From a virus: a stretch of DNA of 33,176 nt. Every line of letters starts with the position of its first letter. Position 1 is the stretch's first letter. Position numbers and translations under genes: made by a program. Positions 7,505 through 14,251 of this stretch are shown in pieces. A model generated the notes under the pieces. The model did not search any database. It worked only from the letters and a program-made list of their open reading frames with translations, and was not told the DNA's origin. Location of the stretch: positions 1 to 33,176 of IMG/VR virus record IMGVR_UViG_3300010883_000212. One strand, given 5' to 3'.

Positions 7505-8392
7505 ATGTCATTTGAAACATTAAAACGCAATCGCGGTTCAAACATCAATAAAATTATAGAAGCAGCAAAATCTGTCGGCGGAGGAGAACAAAAGTCTTAC
7601 GTAGATGAAAGAGTGTGGAAACCCACAGTTGATAAAGCAGGTAATGGTTATGCCATTATCAGATTTCTTCCAGGTAAAGATGGCGCAATACCATTTGTAA
7701 GGTATTGGGATCACGGCTTTAAAGGTCCAACTGGTTTATGGTATATTGAAAATTCACTTACGTCAATAGGTCAAACTGATCCAGTTGGTGAATTAAATTC
7801 AAGGCTTTGGAATTCTGGCATTGATGCCGACAAAGAAAAAGCAAGATCTCAAAAAAGAAGATTACATTATGCTACAAACATATACGTAGTTCAAGATCCA
7901 TCAGCACCTCAAAACGAAGGTAAGGTATTCCTATATAAATTTGGAAAGAAAATCTTCGATAAGATTATGGATAAAATGAATCCAGAGTTTGCAGATGAAA
8001 CTCCAATAGATGCATTTGATTTTTGGGAAGGTGCTAACTTCAAACTTAAGATAAGAAATGTTGAAGGTTATAGAAACTATGATAAGTCAGAGTTTGCTTC
8101 TGCATCTCCTTTCCTTGAAAGTGATGAAGCTAAACTTGAAGAAGTGTACAAGCAAATGCACGATATCAATGAGTTCACTAATCCAAAGAACTACAAAACA
8201 TACGATGAGCTTAAAGCTAAATTGATGAGAGTTCTTGGTGAAGAAATGAATGCAGGTTCATATTCAGTAAAAGAAGAAATCAAGATGAATGATCCAGTAG
8301 CTGCAATGGAACCTGTTACTGTTGAAGAAATCAGCAGTGAGGATGAAGACACTATGTCTTATTTTGCTAAGTTAGCGAAAGAAGATGCTTAG
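7505..8392 (+). CDS. 32: Single-stranded DNA-binding protein gp32
   Basis: 295 residues, close to T4 gp32 (301). The N-terminus has a basic motif (LKRNRGSN) for cooperative binding. The OB-fold core holds IIRFLPGK, RYWDHGFKGPTGLWYIEN, VFLYKFGKKIFDKI and FDFWEGANFKLKIRN. The C-terminus is acidic (EEISSEDEDT) and ends in a helix that in T4 recruits replication proteins. T4 binds zinc with His64, Cys77, Cys87 and Cys90; here His70 remains but the cysteines are Ser84, Asp92 and Gly95, so the zinc site is lost. AAGGAG lies before the ATG. The 3' end overlaps the convergent tape measure gene by 4 bp. Confidence 0.95.
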   Translation: MSFETLKRNRGSNINKIIEAAKSVGGGEQKSYVDERVWKPTVDKAGNGYAIIRFLPGKDGAIPFVRYWDHGFKGPTGLWYIENSLTSIGQTDPVGELNSRLWNSGIDADKEKARSQKRRLHYATNIYVVQDPSAPQNEGKVFLYKFGKKIFDKIMDKMNPEFADETPIDAFDFWEGANFKLKIRNVEGYRNYDKSEFASASPFLESDEAKLEEVYKQMHDINEFTNPKNYKTYDELKAKLMRVLGEEMNAGSYSVKEEIKMNDPVAAMEPVTVEEISSEDEDTMSYFAKLAKEDA

Positions 8393-10113
8393 AATAAATT
8401 ACTAGGATTTCTAATCTGATTACTTAGATTATCTTGTCTATCAATAGCTCCGGAGTTGTCTAATACCATTCCGGAGCTATTGTTTGTAACCACATTTCTA
8501 TTATTAGAATTTACCATATTAACATCGCCACCATAAATTCCGTCATCAGGACCTTGATTACTATATCCATTTGTTGTATTAGATCCATTATACCGCGGTG
8601 TTATTTCAGGTGCTGTTGATGTTTTTCCAAGAGTAAAATTAATCTTTTGTACTTGTTTTACTAAATCATCTGTCTTTAATGCAGGATCTAAGAGTCCACC
8701 GCTTCCTTCTTTTCCAAATTCTATAGTTCCGCCAAAACCTAGCGTTTGTGCTATTTTATTCATGAATCCAGGTTTTTTAAATTCACCACCGTTAGCCATA
8801 GCAAAAACCAAATTACGAGTCATAGATAATGTAGCTCCGAGTTCTAAAAATGTTTTAGTAATCTTTTTTATATCTAAATCGTTAGCAGCTTTATTGAATG
8901 ATTTAACAAACTTTAGTAAACCAGAGCTCAATAAGTCGAGTTGAGTTCCAAGATTATCGGGTATTTCATTTAAAGGCTTCATCGCATCTACAAGATCTCG
9001 AATCATTCCTTTTCGTGCAGTGGCTTGGTCTTCTAATCCAGCTGTGCCAAAGGTTATAAAGTTTATAACTTTCTTTGCACCATTTATTAATCCATCGAGC
9101 AATTGAACTGAAGTAGTTCCTATCATTGCTGATATAAGTGCAGGGCCTAATCCAGCAAGAGCACCAACTTTTTTAAGCAAACCTTCACTATTAACTTTAG
9201 CGAGTTCTTGTAAACCTGCAGCCATGTTTCCCATTACTACTTTAAATGAACTACCATCAACACCTAGCACAGAACCGAGTTTTGATATACCGCCTAAAGC
9301 AAGAATAAATGCACCAATACCAACACCTATAGCTCCTATACCAATTGCTGCAGGACCTGCTAATCCAGTTGCACCAAAAATAGCTCCGGCACCAAGTAAA
9401 CTTCCAAGCATTGTGAATGTTTCTAAATTAAATGCACCTAAACCTTCAGCAAAGTTTATCATCAACGCTTTTAAATTAGCACCTTGATCACCGTCCATCA
9501 TTTTAATTAGTTTATCTGAACCAGCCATTGCTGTAAAAAAACCAGCTAATCCTAATCCTACTGCAGGTAAACCTACTGCAGTTCCTTTAGGAAATATAAC
9601 TCCTGCAGCTAGTACAGAACCGAACGCGATAAATTCTTTTTTTCCAAATGCGCCAAGACCTTCTGCTAAATTCTTTAGTAAATCTCTTATGCCTGAACCT
9701 GCGTCTTTTGATGCAAATTTTTGTATGATAGCTTCAGCACTAGCCAAACCTATGAAGAAAGCACCTAAACCAACACCGGCCGGTCCTAATGCTTTTAATA
9801 TACCAATTGCACCGAGTGTGATACCACCTGCAATTGCTCCAAGCATACCCATAAATCCAAGGTTTTTTAATTTGCCTAATCCGCCTAAAAACCCTCCGCC
9901 GCCACCACTACTACTTTTCAATGGTGCAACTTTAGCATTTTGACGTGCCGATTTAGCTTCTCTACTATCTTCTAGCTGTCGTCTCTTTAAATCAGTAAAG
10001 AATCTTCCAAATTGATTTTCTAAACCAGCTATACCTTGACTAATGTCGACAGATGTATCATTATTAGCTTTTAATTGTTCAACGACATCATTTAAAGTTT
10101 TTCTTGGTGCCAT
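8389..10113 (-). CDS. 29: Tape measure / baseplate hub protein (gp29-like)
   Basis: 574 residues, close to T4 gp29 (590), the tail-length ruler packed inside the tail tube. The protein is Gly/Ala/Leu-rich. A polyglycine stretch (69-75) follows a charged N-terminal helix. Then come three approximate repeats of about 72 residues, each with a small-residue membrane-like segment and then (F/L)AEGLGAF or AAGLQEL (about 109-156, 181-228, 252-304). The C-terminal 100 residues are polar and Asn/Ser-rich. It is the last gene of the minus-strand late operon. It follows the gp26 gene and its frameshift extension by 3 nt, the usual place of a tape measure behind its chaperones. Assignment rests on length, composition and position rather than a diagnostic motif. 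Confidence 0.75.
   Translation of the reverse strand: MAPRKTLNDVVEQLKANNDTSVDISQGIAGLENQFGRFFTDLKRRQLEDSREAKSARQNAKVAPLKSSSGGGGGFLGGLGKLKNLGFMGMLGAIAGGITLGAIGILKALGPAGVGLGAFFIGLASAEAIIQKFASKDAGSGIRDLLKNLAEGLGAFGKKEFIAFGSVLAAGVIFPKGTAVGLPAVGLGLAGFFTAMAGSDKLIKMMDGDQGANLKALMINFAEGLGAFNLETFTMLGSLLGAGAIFGATGLAGPAAIGIGAIGVGIGAFILALGGISKLGSVLGVDGSSFKVVMGNMAAGLQELAKVNSEGLLKKVGALAGLGPALISAMIGTTSVQLLDGLINGAKKVINFITFGTAGLEDQATARKGMIRDLVDAMKPLNEIPDNLGTQLDLLSSGLLKFVKSFNKAANDLDIKKITKTFLELGATLSMTRNLVFAMANGGEFKKPGFMNKIAQTLGFGGTIEFGKEGSGGLLDPALKTDDLVKQVQKINFTLGKTSTAPEITPRYNGSNTTNGYSNQGPDDGIYGGDVNMVNSNNRNVVTNNSSGMVLDNSGAIDRQDNLSNQIRNPSNLF
8442..8482. terminator. 13-bp perfect hairpin at the convergent gp32/gp29 ends
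   Basis: CAATAGCTCCGGA (8442-8454), 15-nt loop, TCCGGAGCTATTG (8470-8482): a perfect 13-bp stem about 50 bp past the gp32 stop and within the 3' coding end of the minus-strand tape measure gene. It can form on both strands. The following T-run is weak (TGTTTGT), so it may be a bidirectional attenuator or 3'-end stabiliser of gp32 mRNA rather than a strong terminator. Confidence 0.65.
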
Positions 10114-10116
10114 TTA

Positions 10117-10308
10117 TCAAACTCCTCTTTGTGATTCTTTCATCCGCATTTCTTCTTCTTTAAGATAATCCACCAACATGTTGATATATACATCTCTTTC
10201 CCATGGTATTAATCCGTCTATCTCACTCAATGAATATTTATGATGCTGCATTAAATCAAAATTTGTTTTGTAATGATTCTGCAGGGATGTGTGAGATAGA
10301 CTAACTAT
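10117..10308 (-). CDS. Frameshift extension of gp26 (T-like segment, gp51-like position)
   Basis: Read on the minus strand, this frame is open from the slippery site at the end of gp26 to TGA at 10117-10119, giving 63 residues. It contains KYSLSEIDGLIPWERDVY and a charged helix DYLKEEEMRMKE. The only ATG is 23 codons in and has no ribosome binding site, so a -1 frameshift on T TTT TTA (plus-strand 10308-10314) is the simplest route of expression, giving a 301-residue gp26 fusion. It ends 3 nt before the tape measure ATG. The pattern (short protein, frameshifted longer form, tape measure) is that of the lambda G/GT tail chaperones. The IPWE helix segment is typical of such T domains (family memory, not tested). 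Confidence 0.65.
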   Translation of the reverse strand: MVSLSHTSLQNHYKTNFDLMQHHKYSLSEIDGLIPWERDVYINMLVDYLKEEEMRMKESQRGV

Positions 10309-11021
10309 AAAAAACTTTGCAGACCTTCAACTGTTACTATATTATCTTCGTGACATTTTTCACATTTAAAATTAATATCATGAGTAAGTTTTGGAATGTT
10401 TTCAATATATTTTCTAATATGGTTAAACTGCTGCTGAGTCATAGACTCTAAAAATTCTTGAAACTCATCAAGTCCTACTTCTTTCATATCAATTCTATTT
10501 TCACCACTCATAACTGCAACTACCGATTCTTTTATCAATGCAAATATTTGATCTGTAGTAGTTGCTTTTTCGCCAATTATGTTTTCATTATTTGCTAATG
10601 ATGTAAATGACGGATGCTTCATTTCTAATGCGATATCATCTGTTACTTTAATTTTATTTCCAATAGTTTTAACGTTCATTTTAATATCATTTAAGTTAAA
10701 ATTTATTTTATTTTCATGTGTGCAATGCCTGCACTTTAATAATAAATCTGTTGTTTCTCCTACCGACTTACATCTCAGTTGTAAAAATAGGTATTCAACG
10801 TCATATGAAGTAAGTAAGTCTACGTGTATGTCTTCTAACATACAAGATCGTACAGTGTCTAAAACACCACCCGCAATTTGTTTTGGATCTTGTGATTCCA
10901 AAGCTATTAGCATTATTTTTTCTTCTTTAACTAAAAAAGGTCTTACAGATATCTCTTTATTGTTTGAAGGTATTGTAATGCTATACTTTGGAACATTATT
11001 TAGTTTTGGCAATAAGCTCAT
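10305..11021 (-). CDS. 26: gp26-like baseplate/tail assembly protein
   Basis: 238 residues of the T4 gp26 base-plate protein family. The N-terminus LNNVPKYSITIPSNNKEISV and FLVKEEKIMLIALES, then a first CxxC (KCRHC) and a second CxxC (KCEKC) near the C-terminus could together bind zinc. The central DLLTSYDVEYLFLQLR is a conserved-looking helix. In T4, gp26 takes part in hub assembly. Here it directly precedes the tape measure gene, and its stop codon lies on the sequence AGT TTT TTA TAG, a canonical -1 slippery site, preceded by an SD-like GAAGGT about 9 nt upstream. It follows the gp54-like gene by 10 nt. Confidence 0.8.
   Translation of the reverse strand: MSLLPKLNNVPKYSITIPSNNKEISVRPFLVKEEKIMLIALESQDPKQIAGGVLDTVRSCMLEDIHVDLLTSYDVEYLFLQLRCKSVGETTDLLLKCRHCTHENKINFNLNDIKMNVKTIGNKIKVTDDIALEMKHPSFTSLANNENIIGEKATTTDQIFALIKESVVAVMSGENRIDMKEVGLDEFQEFLESMTQQQFNHIRKYIENIPKLTHDINFKCEKCHEDNIVTVEGLQSFL
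10308..10314 (-). promoter_or_regulatory. Candidate -1 ribosomal frameshift site (T TTT TTA)
   Basis: On the minus strand the zero frame reads AGT TTT TTA TAG. The heptamer T TTT TTA fits X XXY YYZ exactly and is directly followed by the stop. The -1 frame is then open for 63 codons. GAAGGT upstream could act as a stimulatory SD-like element. No strong downstream stem was seen. Confidence 0.65.
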
Positions 11022-11031
11022 TCATTCGCTC

Positions 11032-11712
11032 CTATAATATATCAATTCCGCCAAAGGGCGTATCAATGTCCATGTTAATAAAATTTTGTACACCAGATGC
11101 TCTTTTCCAATTAGTATATGCAAATGTCACAGTCAATTGCACTAAACCATCAAGATCGTTATTCAATTCAATTGCACTAGATGCTATTGGAAAAGCTTCA
11201 AGTAAATCTACTGAATAGACACTTCCACCACCAACACCTGCATTAAATCTTATAGGTCCTAATTGTTTGCTAAAACCTTTCAACGGTTGTCTTAATTGAT
11301 GTATTGTTACTGTTTTAGCATATTCATTTTTATAGTTAGATGCTTGTCCTGTTTCGTCAAGTATAGTGCTTCTCCAACTATCAAAATAATCTTTTACTCC
11401 ATAATCGTTCATTAAATAAAAAGTCATACTTACGTCATCAACTGCATAACCGTAAGCTACTTTTTGAAATTCCATTCCAATTCTTCTATCATTAGTTAAT
11501 ATCTGTTTTGCAGGCATAGTTGCATTTGAACACAAGATGTTCAATTCTCTTGGACTCGCTCCGCCACCCATTCCGCTGAATGCTCCTACTATACCATTAA
11601 GTAAACCACCACCAACTCCTACACTAGGTAATGTAACTAAAAATTTATTTGGTCTAGCAAAACCCAACTTAGTGTTTACTAATGCTTTAATATCTTCAAT
11701 ACTATTAGCCAT
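11032..11712 (-). CDS. Tail tube-baseplate junction protein (gp54/gp19-like)
   Basis: 226 residues. RPNKFLVTLP, a Gly-rich loop, ILCSNATMPAKQI, GYAVDDVSMTFYLMNDY, DYFDSWRSTIL and a C-terminal VQLTVTFAYTNWKR follow the order of tail-tube fold proteins (gp19, gp48, gp54). gp48 is encoded separately at 12869, so this is most likely gp54, which starts tube assembly on the baseplate; it is shorter than T4 gp54 (320 aa), and an extra tube-like protein is the alternative. The start overlaps the upstream gene by 8 nt. Belongs to the minus-strand late operon. Confidence 0.65.
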   Translation of the reverse strand: MANSIEDIKALVNTKLGFARPNKFLVTLPSVGVGGGLLNGIVGAFSGMGGGASPRELNILCSNATMPAKQILTNDRRIGMEFQKVAYGYAVDDVSMTFYLMNDYGVKDYFDSWRSTILDETGQASNYKNEYAKTVTIHQLRQPLKGFSKQLGPIRFNAGVGGGSVYSVDLLEAFPIASSAIELNNDLDGLVQLTVTFAYTNWKRASGVQNFINMDIDTPFGGIDIL

Positions 11713-12295
11713 TTACTTTCATCCTTGAATTCTGATAAACTTTTCCTGCTGATGCTTTCTCCCATTGAGCAGTAGGTAAAAATGCTGCTATTTCCCATTC
11801 AGGTGATGGCACTTCAGCAAATCGTGATTTAACGTGTGCAAGCAAATAATGCTTGAAACACGGTTGAAAATATCTCATTTTTCGTGCACTTTTTAACAAA
11901 TTGTATGTTAATTTGAATTTTGTCGATTCATCATATTTTTTGTTATTAGTTGCATCTAATAATGCATCTAAGAACTTTGCTCTTAACACTGGAGGAAGAT
12001 AATGTAAATTTATTCCTCTAAATCCGCCAGGAGCTGGTTCAACTGGTATTGTTAATGGAAACCTATCATAAAAAGGTAATTTGTCTTTATGCTTTGGATC
12101 ATAAAAATACATAAACATAGAACCATAACTATGAGATGCTCTACGATTAACTTCAGCTTCTTTCATTAAAGCGCCACGATTAACTCTCGTAAGTCTTTGA
12201 ATTCTTTTACGAAACCAATCGCGCGATTCTTGTGTACGAGGATTAATACCTGCACGAAAAGCTTCAAGTTCTAATTTTTGAAATAAGTTACTCAT
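11705..12295 (-). CDS. Conserved T4-superfamily phage protein of unknown role
   Basis: 196 residues, Arg/Lys- and aromatic-rich. A helical N-terminus (DWFRKRIQRLTRVNR) is followed by MFMYFYDPKHKDKLPFYDRF, then GINLHYLPPVLRAKFLDAL and a C-terminal SPEWEIAAFLPTAQW. I recall similar proteins in many T4-like marine and Vibrio phages, usually of uncertain function and probably involved in virion assembly. It lies between gp4 and the gp54-like gene. A late promoter octamer ends 6 nt before the ATG. Confidence 0.75.
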   Translation of the reverse strand: MSNLFQKLELEAFRAGINPRTQESRDWFRKRIQRLTRVNRGALMKEAEVNRRASHSYGSMFMYFYDPKHKDKLPFYDRFPLTIPVEPAPGGFRGINLHYLPPVLRAKFLDALLDATNNKKYDESTKFKLTYNLLKSARKMRYFQPCFKHYLLAHVKSRFAEVPSPEWEIAAFLPTAQWEKASAGKVYQNSRMKVNG

Positions 12296-12300
12296 GAATC

Positions 12301-12308
12301 TATTTATA
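12301..12308 (-). promoter_or_regulatory. T4-type late promoter, minus strand
   Basis: TATAAATA on the minus strand overlaps the gp4 stop codon. If used with T4 geometry (octamer -13 to -6), transcription would begin at about 12295, the A of the next ATG, giving a leaderless mRNA. It could also be a chance overlap of AAG ATA TAA ATA. Confidence 0.5.
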
Positions 12309-12807
12309 TCTTTTTCTTACGCTTTTTTCGAAATGGTTTCATTGGAGTATACTTCTTAAGTTTTCCAGGAACTGGCTTATGCAATAGTTTCATTTCTTGT
12401 AAAGTTTTTTCAGTCCACACGTGAAACTCCCAACCACGATCCTTTGCGTATTCATTAGCAGCTTCCCATTTGTTCATATTCTTAACGTAAGTAAGACCTT
12501 CAGTTATATATCGCTTAGTTCTTTTTTCTCCAATAGGAGGTACCGTTTCTTTTTCAGGTTTTATCTCTACGAGTATGGTTTTCTCTTTAAATACTATCTT
12601 TAAATCAACATAGTACTTATGATAACGCTTATCAACATCATAATAATATGGAATAACAACTTCTTCTGAACCCCATCGTTTTACTTTATCGTTATTATCG
12701 CACCACTGAAACACCGCCTTTTCCCATAAAGACCTGTATATTATATTATTAGCATCACCTTTATACTTAGATGCATTTTTGATTGTATATCTACCTGAAT
12801 AAGCCAT
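12304..12807 (-). CDS. 4: Head completion protein gp4
   Basis: 167 residues from the ATG at 12807, which gives the family start MAYSGRYTIKN; the 21 extra upstream residues from ATG 12870 are hydrophobic noise from an AT-rich gap. Core: NIIYRSLWEKAVFQWCD, KRWGSEEVVIPYYYDVDKRY, KYYVDLKIVF and VEIKPEKET. The order E...D...ExK is that of a PD-(D/E)xK/TnsA-like nuclease fold, which T4 gp4 (150 aa) shares. In T4, gp4 is needed to finish heads before tail joining. The C-terminus is very basic (KPFRKKRKKKI). First gene of the minus-strand late operon, divergent from gp48. Confidence 0.88.
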   Translation of the reverse strand: MAYSGRYTIKNASKYKGDANNIIYRSLWEKAVFQWCDNNDKVKRWGSEEVVIPYYYDVDKRYHKYYVDLKIVFKEKTILVEIKPEKETVPPIGEKRTKRYITEGLTYVKNMNKWEAANEYAKDRGWEFHVWTEKTLQEMKLLHKPVPGKLKKYTPMKPFRKKRKKKI

Positions 12808-12815
12808 GTTTTTGT

Positions 12816-12823
12816 TATAAATA
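12816..12823 (+). promoter_or_regulatory. T4-type late promoter before gp48
   Basis: TATAAATA, 45 nt before the gp48 ATG, in the 61-bp divergent gap between gp4 and gp48. It should be recognised by the gp55/gp33/clamp system; gp33 is encoded at 7196. Confidence 0.75.
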
Positions 12824-12868
12824 GAAAAATAATATTTAATAATAATAATAGTATCTATAAGGATTATC

Positions 12869-14251
12869 ATGTCAGATATAGGATTAGCAGGAATTTCAAC
12901 AACATCTCTTAATAAAGTAGGACCTAATGGTGAAATGTTAGCTGGAAGTGCTTTTCCAGGGTTAGATGCTTTTGGCGGAAGTGTACCGAAGGTAGGAACA
13001 ACTACAGCAGGTGACGGATTTAGAAACTTAAATTTTGATGATTTATCTGGTCAAGTTAAAACAGCTACAAAATCATTAGAAGGATTGCTAAACGGATTGT
13101 TTAGCTCAAAACGAAGATCTGATTTAAAATATCCTCTTGAAACTGACAGTCCAGCGTATCAAGCCAGAGTTCAATTTAGAATGTTTTCACTGCAACCTAT
13201 GATTGATGGTGAAAGCCAAAAAAACTTTGATAAAGTTGCAAATGATAATTTAAAAAGTTTATTAGAATCCTCTGCAAAAACTCAAGATGTACGAGCTCAA
13301 GTTGATAGTTTTGGCTATGCTGGAAGAAATAGTGGTACAGCTAAAGCAGGAATAGATGGACCATCATCTGCTGCAGCGTCTGCTACAGGCAGTTCGGCTG
13401 CAACTGGAGCAAACAAGACGGCATCGAAAGAAAGTGGTCAAGATTTAGAAAAAACTATAACAGATAAACTTGCAGGATCACAATTTGTGAAGCAAGCTAG
13501 CAAACATATTATGGGAGGTGTTGAGTTTAAACCTGTAAGAAACACTCCAATAGTAGATATGTATTTTCCTATCACTATGCAATTTAATGATAATGCGCAA
13601 TATGATAATGCATCATTAGGTGCTTTTGGTGGAGCTGTTGAAGGAGCAATGCAGCAAGGTGGTGGAGCTCTTGAATCAGTATTAGGAGAATTTAATAACG
13701 GTTTGGTAAGTATGTTTGATGCTGTATCAGGTAATAAAAAACTTTCAGAAGCTGCTTTTAGAGTAGGCTTGGCTCGAGTTATTGATAAAGCTACTATGCT
13801 AAATTCCGGTGTAGCTAATGCATTGACACTTCAAAATAGAACAATAATTAATCCAAATATAAGAGCTTTATTTAGAGGCGTGGGTTTACGTGAATTTACA
13901 TTTCAGTTTAAGATGATTGCTCGTTCTCAATTAGAGGCAGAAGTAATAAGACAAATAGTTCAGCACTTTAGAGAAGAAATGTACCCTGGAACTTTTGATA
14001 TTGATCAATTAGGCGGCGCCGATATTGGATTTAAATTTCCTAATGTTTTCCAAATACAATTTAATTATAACGGCGTGCCTAATAGAAATATTCCAAAAAT
14101 AGAATATTGTTATTTACGTAATGTTAGTACTTCAATAAATCCAACTGGAGGAGCTTTTAGAAGAGACGGTCAACCGAATGAAGTTGATTTAACATTAAGT
14201 TTTGTTGAATACAAAACTCTAAATAAAAAAGATATAAGGGCAGGATACTAA
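12869..14251 (+). CDS. 48: Baseplate tail tube cap protein gp48
   Basis: 460 residues. The C-terminal third is the gp48 signature: RTIINPNIRALFRGVGLREF, FQFKMIARSQLEAEVIRQIV, HFREEMYPGTF, FPNVFQIQFNYNG, IEYCYLRNVSTSINPTG and DLTLSFVEYKTLNKKDI. In T4, gp48 joins gp54 on the hub and starts the tail tube. T4 gp48 is 364 aa; the extra length here comes from a Gly/Ala/Ser-rich region (about 145-180) and a longer N-terminus. AAGGA precedes the ATG. The stop overlaps the gp53 ATG by 1 nt. First gene of the long plus-strand late operon. Confidence 0.88.
   Translation: MSDIGLAGISTTSLNKVGPNGEMLAGSAFPGLDAFGGSVPKVGTTTAGDGFRNLNFDDLSGQVKTATKSLEGLLNGLFSSKRRSDLKYPLETDSPAYQARVQFRMFSLQPMIDGESQKNFDKVANDNLKSLLESSAKTQDVRAQVDSFGYAGRNSGTAKAGIDGPSSAAASATGSSAATGANKTASKESGQDLEKTITDKLAGSQFVKQASKHIMGGVEFKPVRNTPIVDMYFPITMQFNDNAQYDNASLGAFGGAVEGAMQQGGGALESVLGEFNNGLVSMFDAVSGNKKLSEAAFRVGLARVIDKATMLNSGVANALTLQNRTIINPNIRALFRGVGLREFTFQFKMIARSQLEAEVIRQIVQHFREEMYPGTFDIDQLGGADIGFKFPNVFQIQFNYNGVPNRNIPKIEYCYLRNVSTSINPTGGAFRRDGQPNEVDLTLSFVEYKTLNKKDIRAGY

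Follow-up and report, generated by a model that had tools for sequence, protein, structure and literature searches.

A predicted programmed -1 frameshift at the end of gene 26 would add a gp51-like tail to the short tail assembly chaperone of a T4-like phage

Introduction

In phage lambda, ribosomes that shift to the -1 frame close to the end of the short gene G make a long form, gpGT, with a C-terminal extension, and the locus lies between the genes for the tail tube and the tape measure. The slippery site of lambda is G GGA AAG. The G-T frameshift was reviewed as conserved in long-tailed phages, with T4 as the exception (Atkins 2016, PMC5009743). Phage Adele, which belongs to other families (Vandenendeviridae/Andersonviridae), is likewise reported to have a conserved -1 frameshift, with a GTTTTT motif, ahead of its tape measure gene (PMC12846349). 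Both gp26 and gp51 of T4 are counted among the chaperones of hub assembly, but according to some studies gp26 is part of the hub (PMC3004832).

For T4-like phages, the study of Vladimirov, Gautam and Davidson 2022 (Virology 566:9) is known to us through the papers that cite it. PRFect cites it for T4-like phages in which one chaperone gene is short and the other is a fused long one (PMC10885494), and the Adele paper cites it for poly-T -1 signals in the short chaperone genes of T4-like phages (PMC12846349). As far as these citing papers convey, the principle and the family are already known for T4-like phages, and the locus described here is a further member with an ordinary and well supported mechanism. 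Our literature search, in which Vladimirov 2022 was represented by its citing papers, found no description of the downstream stem, the clade survey or the stop-start variant presented below.

Here, we analyzed a stretch of DNA of 33,176 nucleotides from a marine T4-like phage (IMG/VR record IMGVR_UViG_3300010883_000212; hereafter, the window). The locus shares with lambda G/GT a -1 frameshift, predicted here, near the end of the short gene, a long form with a C-terminal extension, and the position between the tail tube and the tape measure, the latter being putative in the window. The slip site differs, since the family of the window uses U UUU UUN instead of the lambda sequence, and the short protein (238 aa) is larger than the N-terminal protein of lambda.

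Results

Organization of the gene 26 locus

Gene 26 occupies positions 10305..11021 of the minus strand, including the stop codon. Its product, gp26, matched the Pfam family PF12322 (T4_baseplate; E=1e-55, 189 bits against a cut-off of 24.5) and PHROG 150 (baseplate hub; 1.7e-57). Together with an AlphaFold2 model (pLDDT 92.9), these matches point to a short tail assembly chaperone (TAC-N, lambda gpG-like). The first ~90 residues of the model aligned with 3fgx (Z 8.4) and 2ob9 (Z 7.5), and the next chain reached 4.3; Z values of 7 to 8 can be chance, but these two entries stand apart from the rest. The alignment with the HK97 tail assembly chaperone (PDB 2ob9) covers 86 residues with an rmsd of 4.1 and 8% identity, and gp26 carries about 145 residues beyond the aligned region. 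A Foldseek search of the model against the PDB gave nothing below E 0.001. The resemblance of the modelled N-terminal fold to the HK97 chaperone is supportive of the assignment, not conclusive.

The last codons of gene 26 are CAA AGT TTT TTA TAG. The slippery heptamer, T TTT TTA in the 0 frame, lies at 10308..10314 of the minus strand, and the 0-frame stop codon TAG follows immediately. The -1 frame reads TTT TTT ATA GTT AGT CTA and stays open to a TGA at 10119-10117. This extension (10117..10308, minus strand) comprises 63 codons after the slip plus the TGA, and the predicted frameshift product has 238 + 63 = 301 aa. The extension matched PHROG 634 ('baseplate hub assembly catalyst'; E=8e-28, positions 57-117 of 121) and the end of PHROG 150 (positions 232-277, E=5e-4). 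By tblastn, relatives of the extension were found in 537 phage records and relatives of gp26 in 705. The extension would be the C-terminal part of a long form (TAC-NC), that is, a gp51-like tail. When modelled alone, it gave two helices with low confidence (pLDDT 68). The first-pass annotation of this DNA had described the heptamer at the stop codon, the 63 open codons ending 3 nt before the ATG of the tape measure gene, and an IPWER stretch in the extension. All of these were found at the locus.

The putative tape measure gene (8389..10113, minus strand) begins with the ATG at 10113, separated by 3 nt from the TGA of the extension. Its ribosome binding site, AGGAG at 10122..10126 of the same strand, lies inside the end of the extension, with an anti-Shine-Dalgarno (anti-SD) energy of -8.5 kcal/mol. 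The encoded protein of 574 aa is Gly/Ala-rich; profile searches gave no PHROG match and no accepted Pfam family, and its assignment, based on position and composition, is putative. In Sinorhizobium phage phiM12, the gene just downstream of the equivalent pair is annotated as tape-measure-like. Directly upstream of gene 26 lies the tail tube gene (11032..11712, minus strand; PHROG 45, E=1.1e-27), which gives the order tail tube, chaperone, putative tape measure. On the same strand, upstream of the tail tube gene, are genes for a DNA end protector (11705-12295; PHROG 429) and a head closure protein (12304-12870; PHROG 218, with a TnsA-like Pfam domain). Elsewhere in the window, the protein encoded at 16366-17211 matches tail lysozyme hub proteins with its N-terminus, and tape-measure and endolysin profiles with its C-terminal half.

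Conservation of the slip site

The exact 10-mer of the slip site occurs once in the window. Because 38 of 100 shuffles of this AT-rich DNA also contain it, the string by itself proves nothing, and the case for the site has to be made from its conservation. The in-frame pattern U UUU UUN occurs 8 times in the 9913 codons of 28 ORFs, and only once at a gene end.

We gathered loci from IMG/VR and from named phages, and the extension cores were located with queries that omitted the slip site. The survey set comprised the 324 loci in which a long frame lies upstream, and these formed 137 clusters at 80% identity. An in-frame NNT TTT TTN at the end of gp26, together with the -1 extension, was present in 322 of the 324 loci and in 137/137 clusters. 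The heptamer was TTTTTTC in 83 clusters, TTTTTTT in 41, TTTTTTA in 10 and TTTTTTG in 3. The codon before the TTT of the heptamer encodes S, D, N, A or T and ends in T in every cluster (log10 P -29 from codon usage, with clusters treated as independent). The F codon of the slip site is likewise TTT in every cluster (log10 P -21 under codon usage, ignoring kinship). In 129 clusters, the 0-frame stop is reached within 1 to 3 codons; in the remaining 8 clusters it takes 9 to 10. The heptamer was found in Kyanoviridae, Sinorhizobium phage phiM12, Pootjesviridae, schizoT4 vibriophages and Emmerichvirinae, as well as in Citrobacter phage Ci1, Pseudomonas phages pf16 and Milchi, and Stenotrophomonas phage YB07. 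A plasmid search found no relative.

The two exceptions, both of the Ackermannviridae type, were Limestone (Ackermannviridae) and Vibrio phage D504, where a TAATG stop-start overlap takes the place of the heptamer. In these phages (L099:3292-3306 and L100:3166-3180), the TAATG puts an ATG in the frame of the extension, and translational coupling has probably replaced the frameshift. The expectation of the first-pass annotation that the T run is kept wherever both frames persist held in the 322 loci and failed in these two. Loci L087, L088, L089, L090, L091, L092, L097 and L098 carry the heptamer plus an overlapping TAATG or TGATG. Phages of this kind may make a free extension alongside the fusion.

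We consider it very probable, from this conservation, that gene 26 ends in a site of programmed -1 ribosomal frameshifting and that two tail assembly chaperones result, a short one as the major form and a long one as the minor form. Slipping back by one base on U UUU UUA would carry a minority of ribosomes past the neighboring UAG and lengthen their product by 63 residues. The products would be a major chaperone of 238 aa and a minor one of 301 aa, the T4-like counterpart of lambda gpG/gpGT. A reading as a frameshifted tail chaperone of the lambda G/GT type had been offered before this survey, and both conservation and gene order support it. The slip site, the open -1 frame, the coding conservation, the stem described below and the homology to T4 gp26 and gp51 come from sequence and conservation. 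We infer from them the slip, which most likely occurs, and its rate. The long form may link the tail tube and the tape measure.

Translation of the -1 frame

The -1 frame contained no stop codon within 45 codons in 137/137 clusters, whereas the 0 frame has stops in 137 and the +1 frame in 136. In codons 4-19 of the extension, 262, 195 and 569 differences fell on -1-frame codon positions 1, 2 and 3, respectively, mostly on the third. In the survey loci, the conservation of the extension starts at the slip site.

Database annotations treat the extension as a separate small gene (gp51, 'baseplate hub assembly catalyst'), and such a gene would need its own start through reinitiation or translational coupling. 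In some phages the overlapping TAATG or TGATG does supply an ATG in the -1 frame, and in Limestone and Vibrio D504, where the overlap occurs without the heptamer, coupling is likely. In the window, however, the first ATG, GTG or TTG of the extension is the ATG of codon 20. The anti-SD energy upstream of it is +0.6 kcal/mol, against the strongly favorable value at the tape measure start, and no ribosome binding site for the extension was found in the window by this measure, as the first-pass annotation had noted. Moreover, a conserved region, LSH..L..YY.TNF, precedes codon 20. That the relatives might have a normal start with a ribosome binding site did not prove general: their mean anti-SD energy was -0.12 kcal/mol at the first start-like codon, compared with -4.1 at the tape measure start and -1.4 at random positions. 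In the -1 frame, 104/137 clusters had no ATG, GTG or TTG close to the gp26 stop, and 33 had one. Since there is no ribosome binding site, conserved residues lie before the first start, and a start near the stop occurs in only 33 of the 137 clusters, these sequences indicate that separate initiation is not the general rule. A separate gene also leaves the invariant T6 in the upstream gene unexplained. We regard this explanation as improbable for the window.

A candidate stimulatory stem downstream of the heptamer

Frameshifting at the heptamer would probably be raised by an RNA structure that begins 6 nt downstream of it. In the window, an 11-bp stem can form between GTCTATCTCAC (5' arm, 10291..10301, minus strand) and GTGAGATAGAC (3' arm, 10216..10226, minus strand), with a loop of 64 nt; the 3' arm falls within the extension codons S-E-I-D. 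The fold z of this stem was -5.1, and synonymous-codon shuffles gave a z of -5.6. Across the family, the mean folding z peaked at -1.41 right after the heptamer, against about -0.4 in gp26. With synonymous-codon shuffles, the region after the heptamer had a mean z of -1.87, and 68/137 clusters were at p 0.05 or less. The corresponding values in the gp26 control regions were z -0.33 to -0.55 and 19-30/137 clusters.

The clade of the window (15 members) was defined from the gp26 tree alone, independently of the stem. The stem, with 9 or more of the 11 pairs, was present in 14/15 members. Outside the clade, at most 8/11 pairs were found, except for L047, which has 9 in one listing; other clades fold different stems. 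Silent-site constraint in the extension of the 15 members peaked at L4 and S5 and at E29, I30 and D31, which correspond to the two arms; smaller maxima at L27 and I34 adjoin the 3' arm. Across the clade, the rare codons GAG, ATA and GAC of the 3' arm hardly vary (log10 p -7.5 to -8.9 for each). Pairing of the arms in the clade was 94.5%, compared with 22-53% when the arms were slid. The stem is nearly invariant within the clade and its covariation is weak. Because only one of the 11 pairs has changed on both sides, the case for the stem rests on silent-site conservation. These results suggest that the 11-bp stem is likely, though not proven, to be real in the clade of the window. A search against Rfam gave no match.

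SD-like codons upstream of the slip site were enriched across the family: GAG accounts for 42/73 E codons against a usage of 27%, and GGG for 17% against 5%. In relatives, an SD-like GAGGG is over-used ~8-20 nt upstream of the slip site, as in the dnaX stimulator. The window has GAAGGT there, which was no better than synonymous shuffles (p 0.94), and we do not propose an upstream SD-like stimulator for it. In relatives, a second peak of RNA structure was seen at +200 to +240 past the heptamer, at the start of the tape measure gene.

The fusion could also arise from RNA polymerase and not from the ribosome, if transcriptional slippage on the T run gave a mixed mRNA. Such slippage is conceivable at the run length of 8 T found in 33/137 clusters. 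However, the run is exactly 6 T in 96/137 clusters, including the window, and 6 T is short for known transcriptional slippage. What is conserved is, moreover, a heptamer in frame register, with a downstream stem at a distance typical of ribosomal frameshift signals. We therefore consider transcriptional slippage very unlikely. A homopolymer error in sequencing or assembly that split one gene in two, to which such runs are prone, is refuted by the relatives, since hundreds of isolates and metagenomes that are independent of each other and come from unlike hosts are arranged identically.

Relationship to T4 gp26 and gp51

The first-pass annotation had guessed that the locus might show how T4 gp26 and gp51 relate, and this guess was right. 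Both T4 proteins belong to PF12322 (8.8e-64 and 3.9e-52, respectively), and they match each other with E 2e-6. A profile of the -1 extension hit the C-termini of five gp51-type proteins, those of 44RR (1e-10), JS98 (4e-8), T4 (8e-8), EC-F2 (2e-7) and Acj61 (4e-5), whereas it gave no match to gp26-type proteins. T4 gp26 is the counterpart of the short form, and T4 gp51 joins the short form and the extension in frame. In T4 gp51, PF12322 and the extension stand in one frame; the parts in the window lie in two frames and are equivalent only via the frameshift. T4 has two separate genes on opposite strands, in contrast to the overlapping frames of one locus in the window. The end of T4 gene 26, GAG TTC TTT GAG TTA CTA TAA, lacks the heptamer. 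Thus, where the window would use a frameshift, T4-type phages have two genes, one for the short form and one in which the long form is already fused.

In the tree, a single branch (92/96) set the two-gene copies apart, and the long forms made one group (100/99); long branches and the missing root limit what this grouping can show. The simplest reading of these sequences is that one duplication replaced the frameshift in T4-type phages, although the direction is not proven. We tentatively suggest, with somewhat less than even confidence, that T4-related phages make the chaperone pair by three routes: a -1 frameshift with clade-specific stems, a stop-start overlap of the Ackermannviridae type, and a duplicated gene 26 with a fused gene 51. 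The phages with both heptamer and ATG may make short, fused and free-extension forms.

On the frameshift reading, the wider T4-like family would retain the tail frameshift that the 2016 review (PMC5009743) says T4 lacks. The small 'gp51' gene of hundreds of cyanophages is most likely the tail of the frameshift product and not a gene of its own. It also becomes possible to see the hub chaperones gp26 and gp51 as short and long forms, and the role of T4 gp51 becomes testable by simple reporter and complementation assays. In Enterobacter phage EC-F2 (Pseudotevenvirus; L330:1501-2794), long and short PF12322-like genes lie in tandem on one strand, whereas the T4 pair is opposed.
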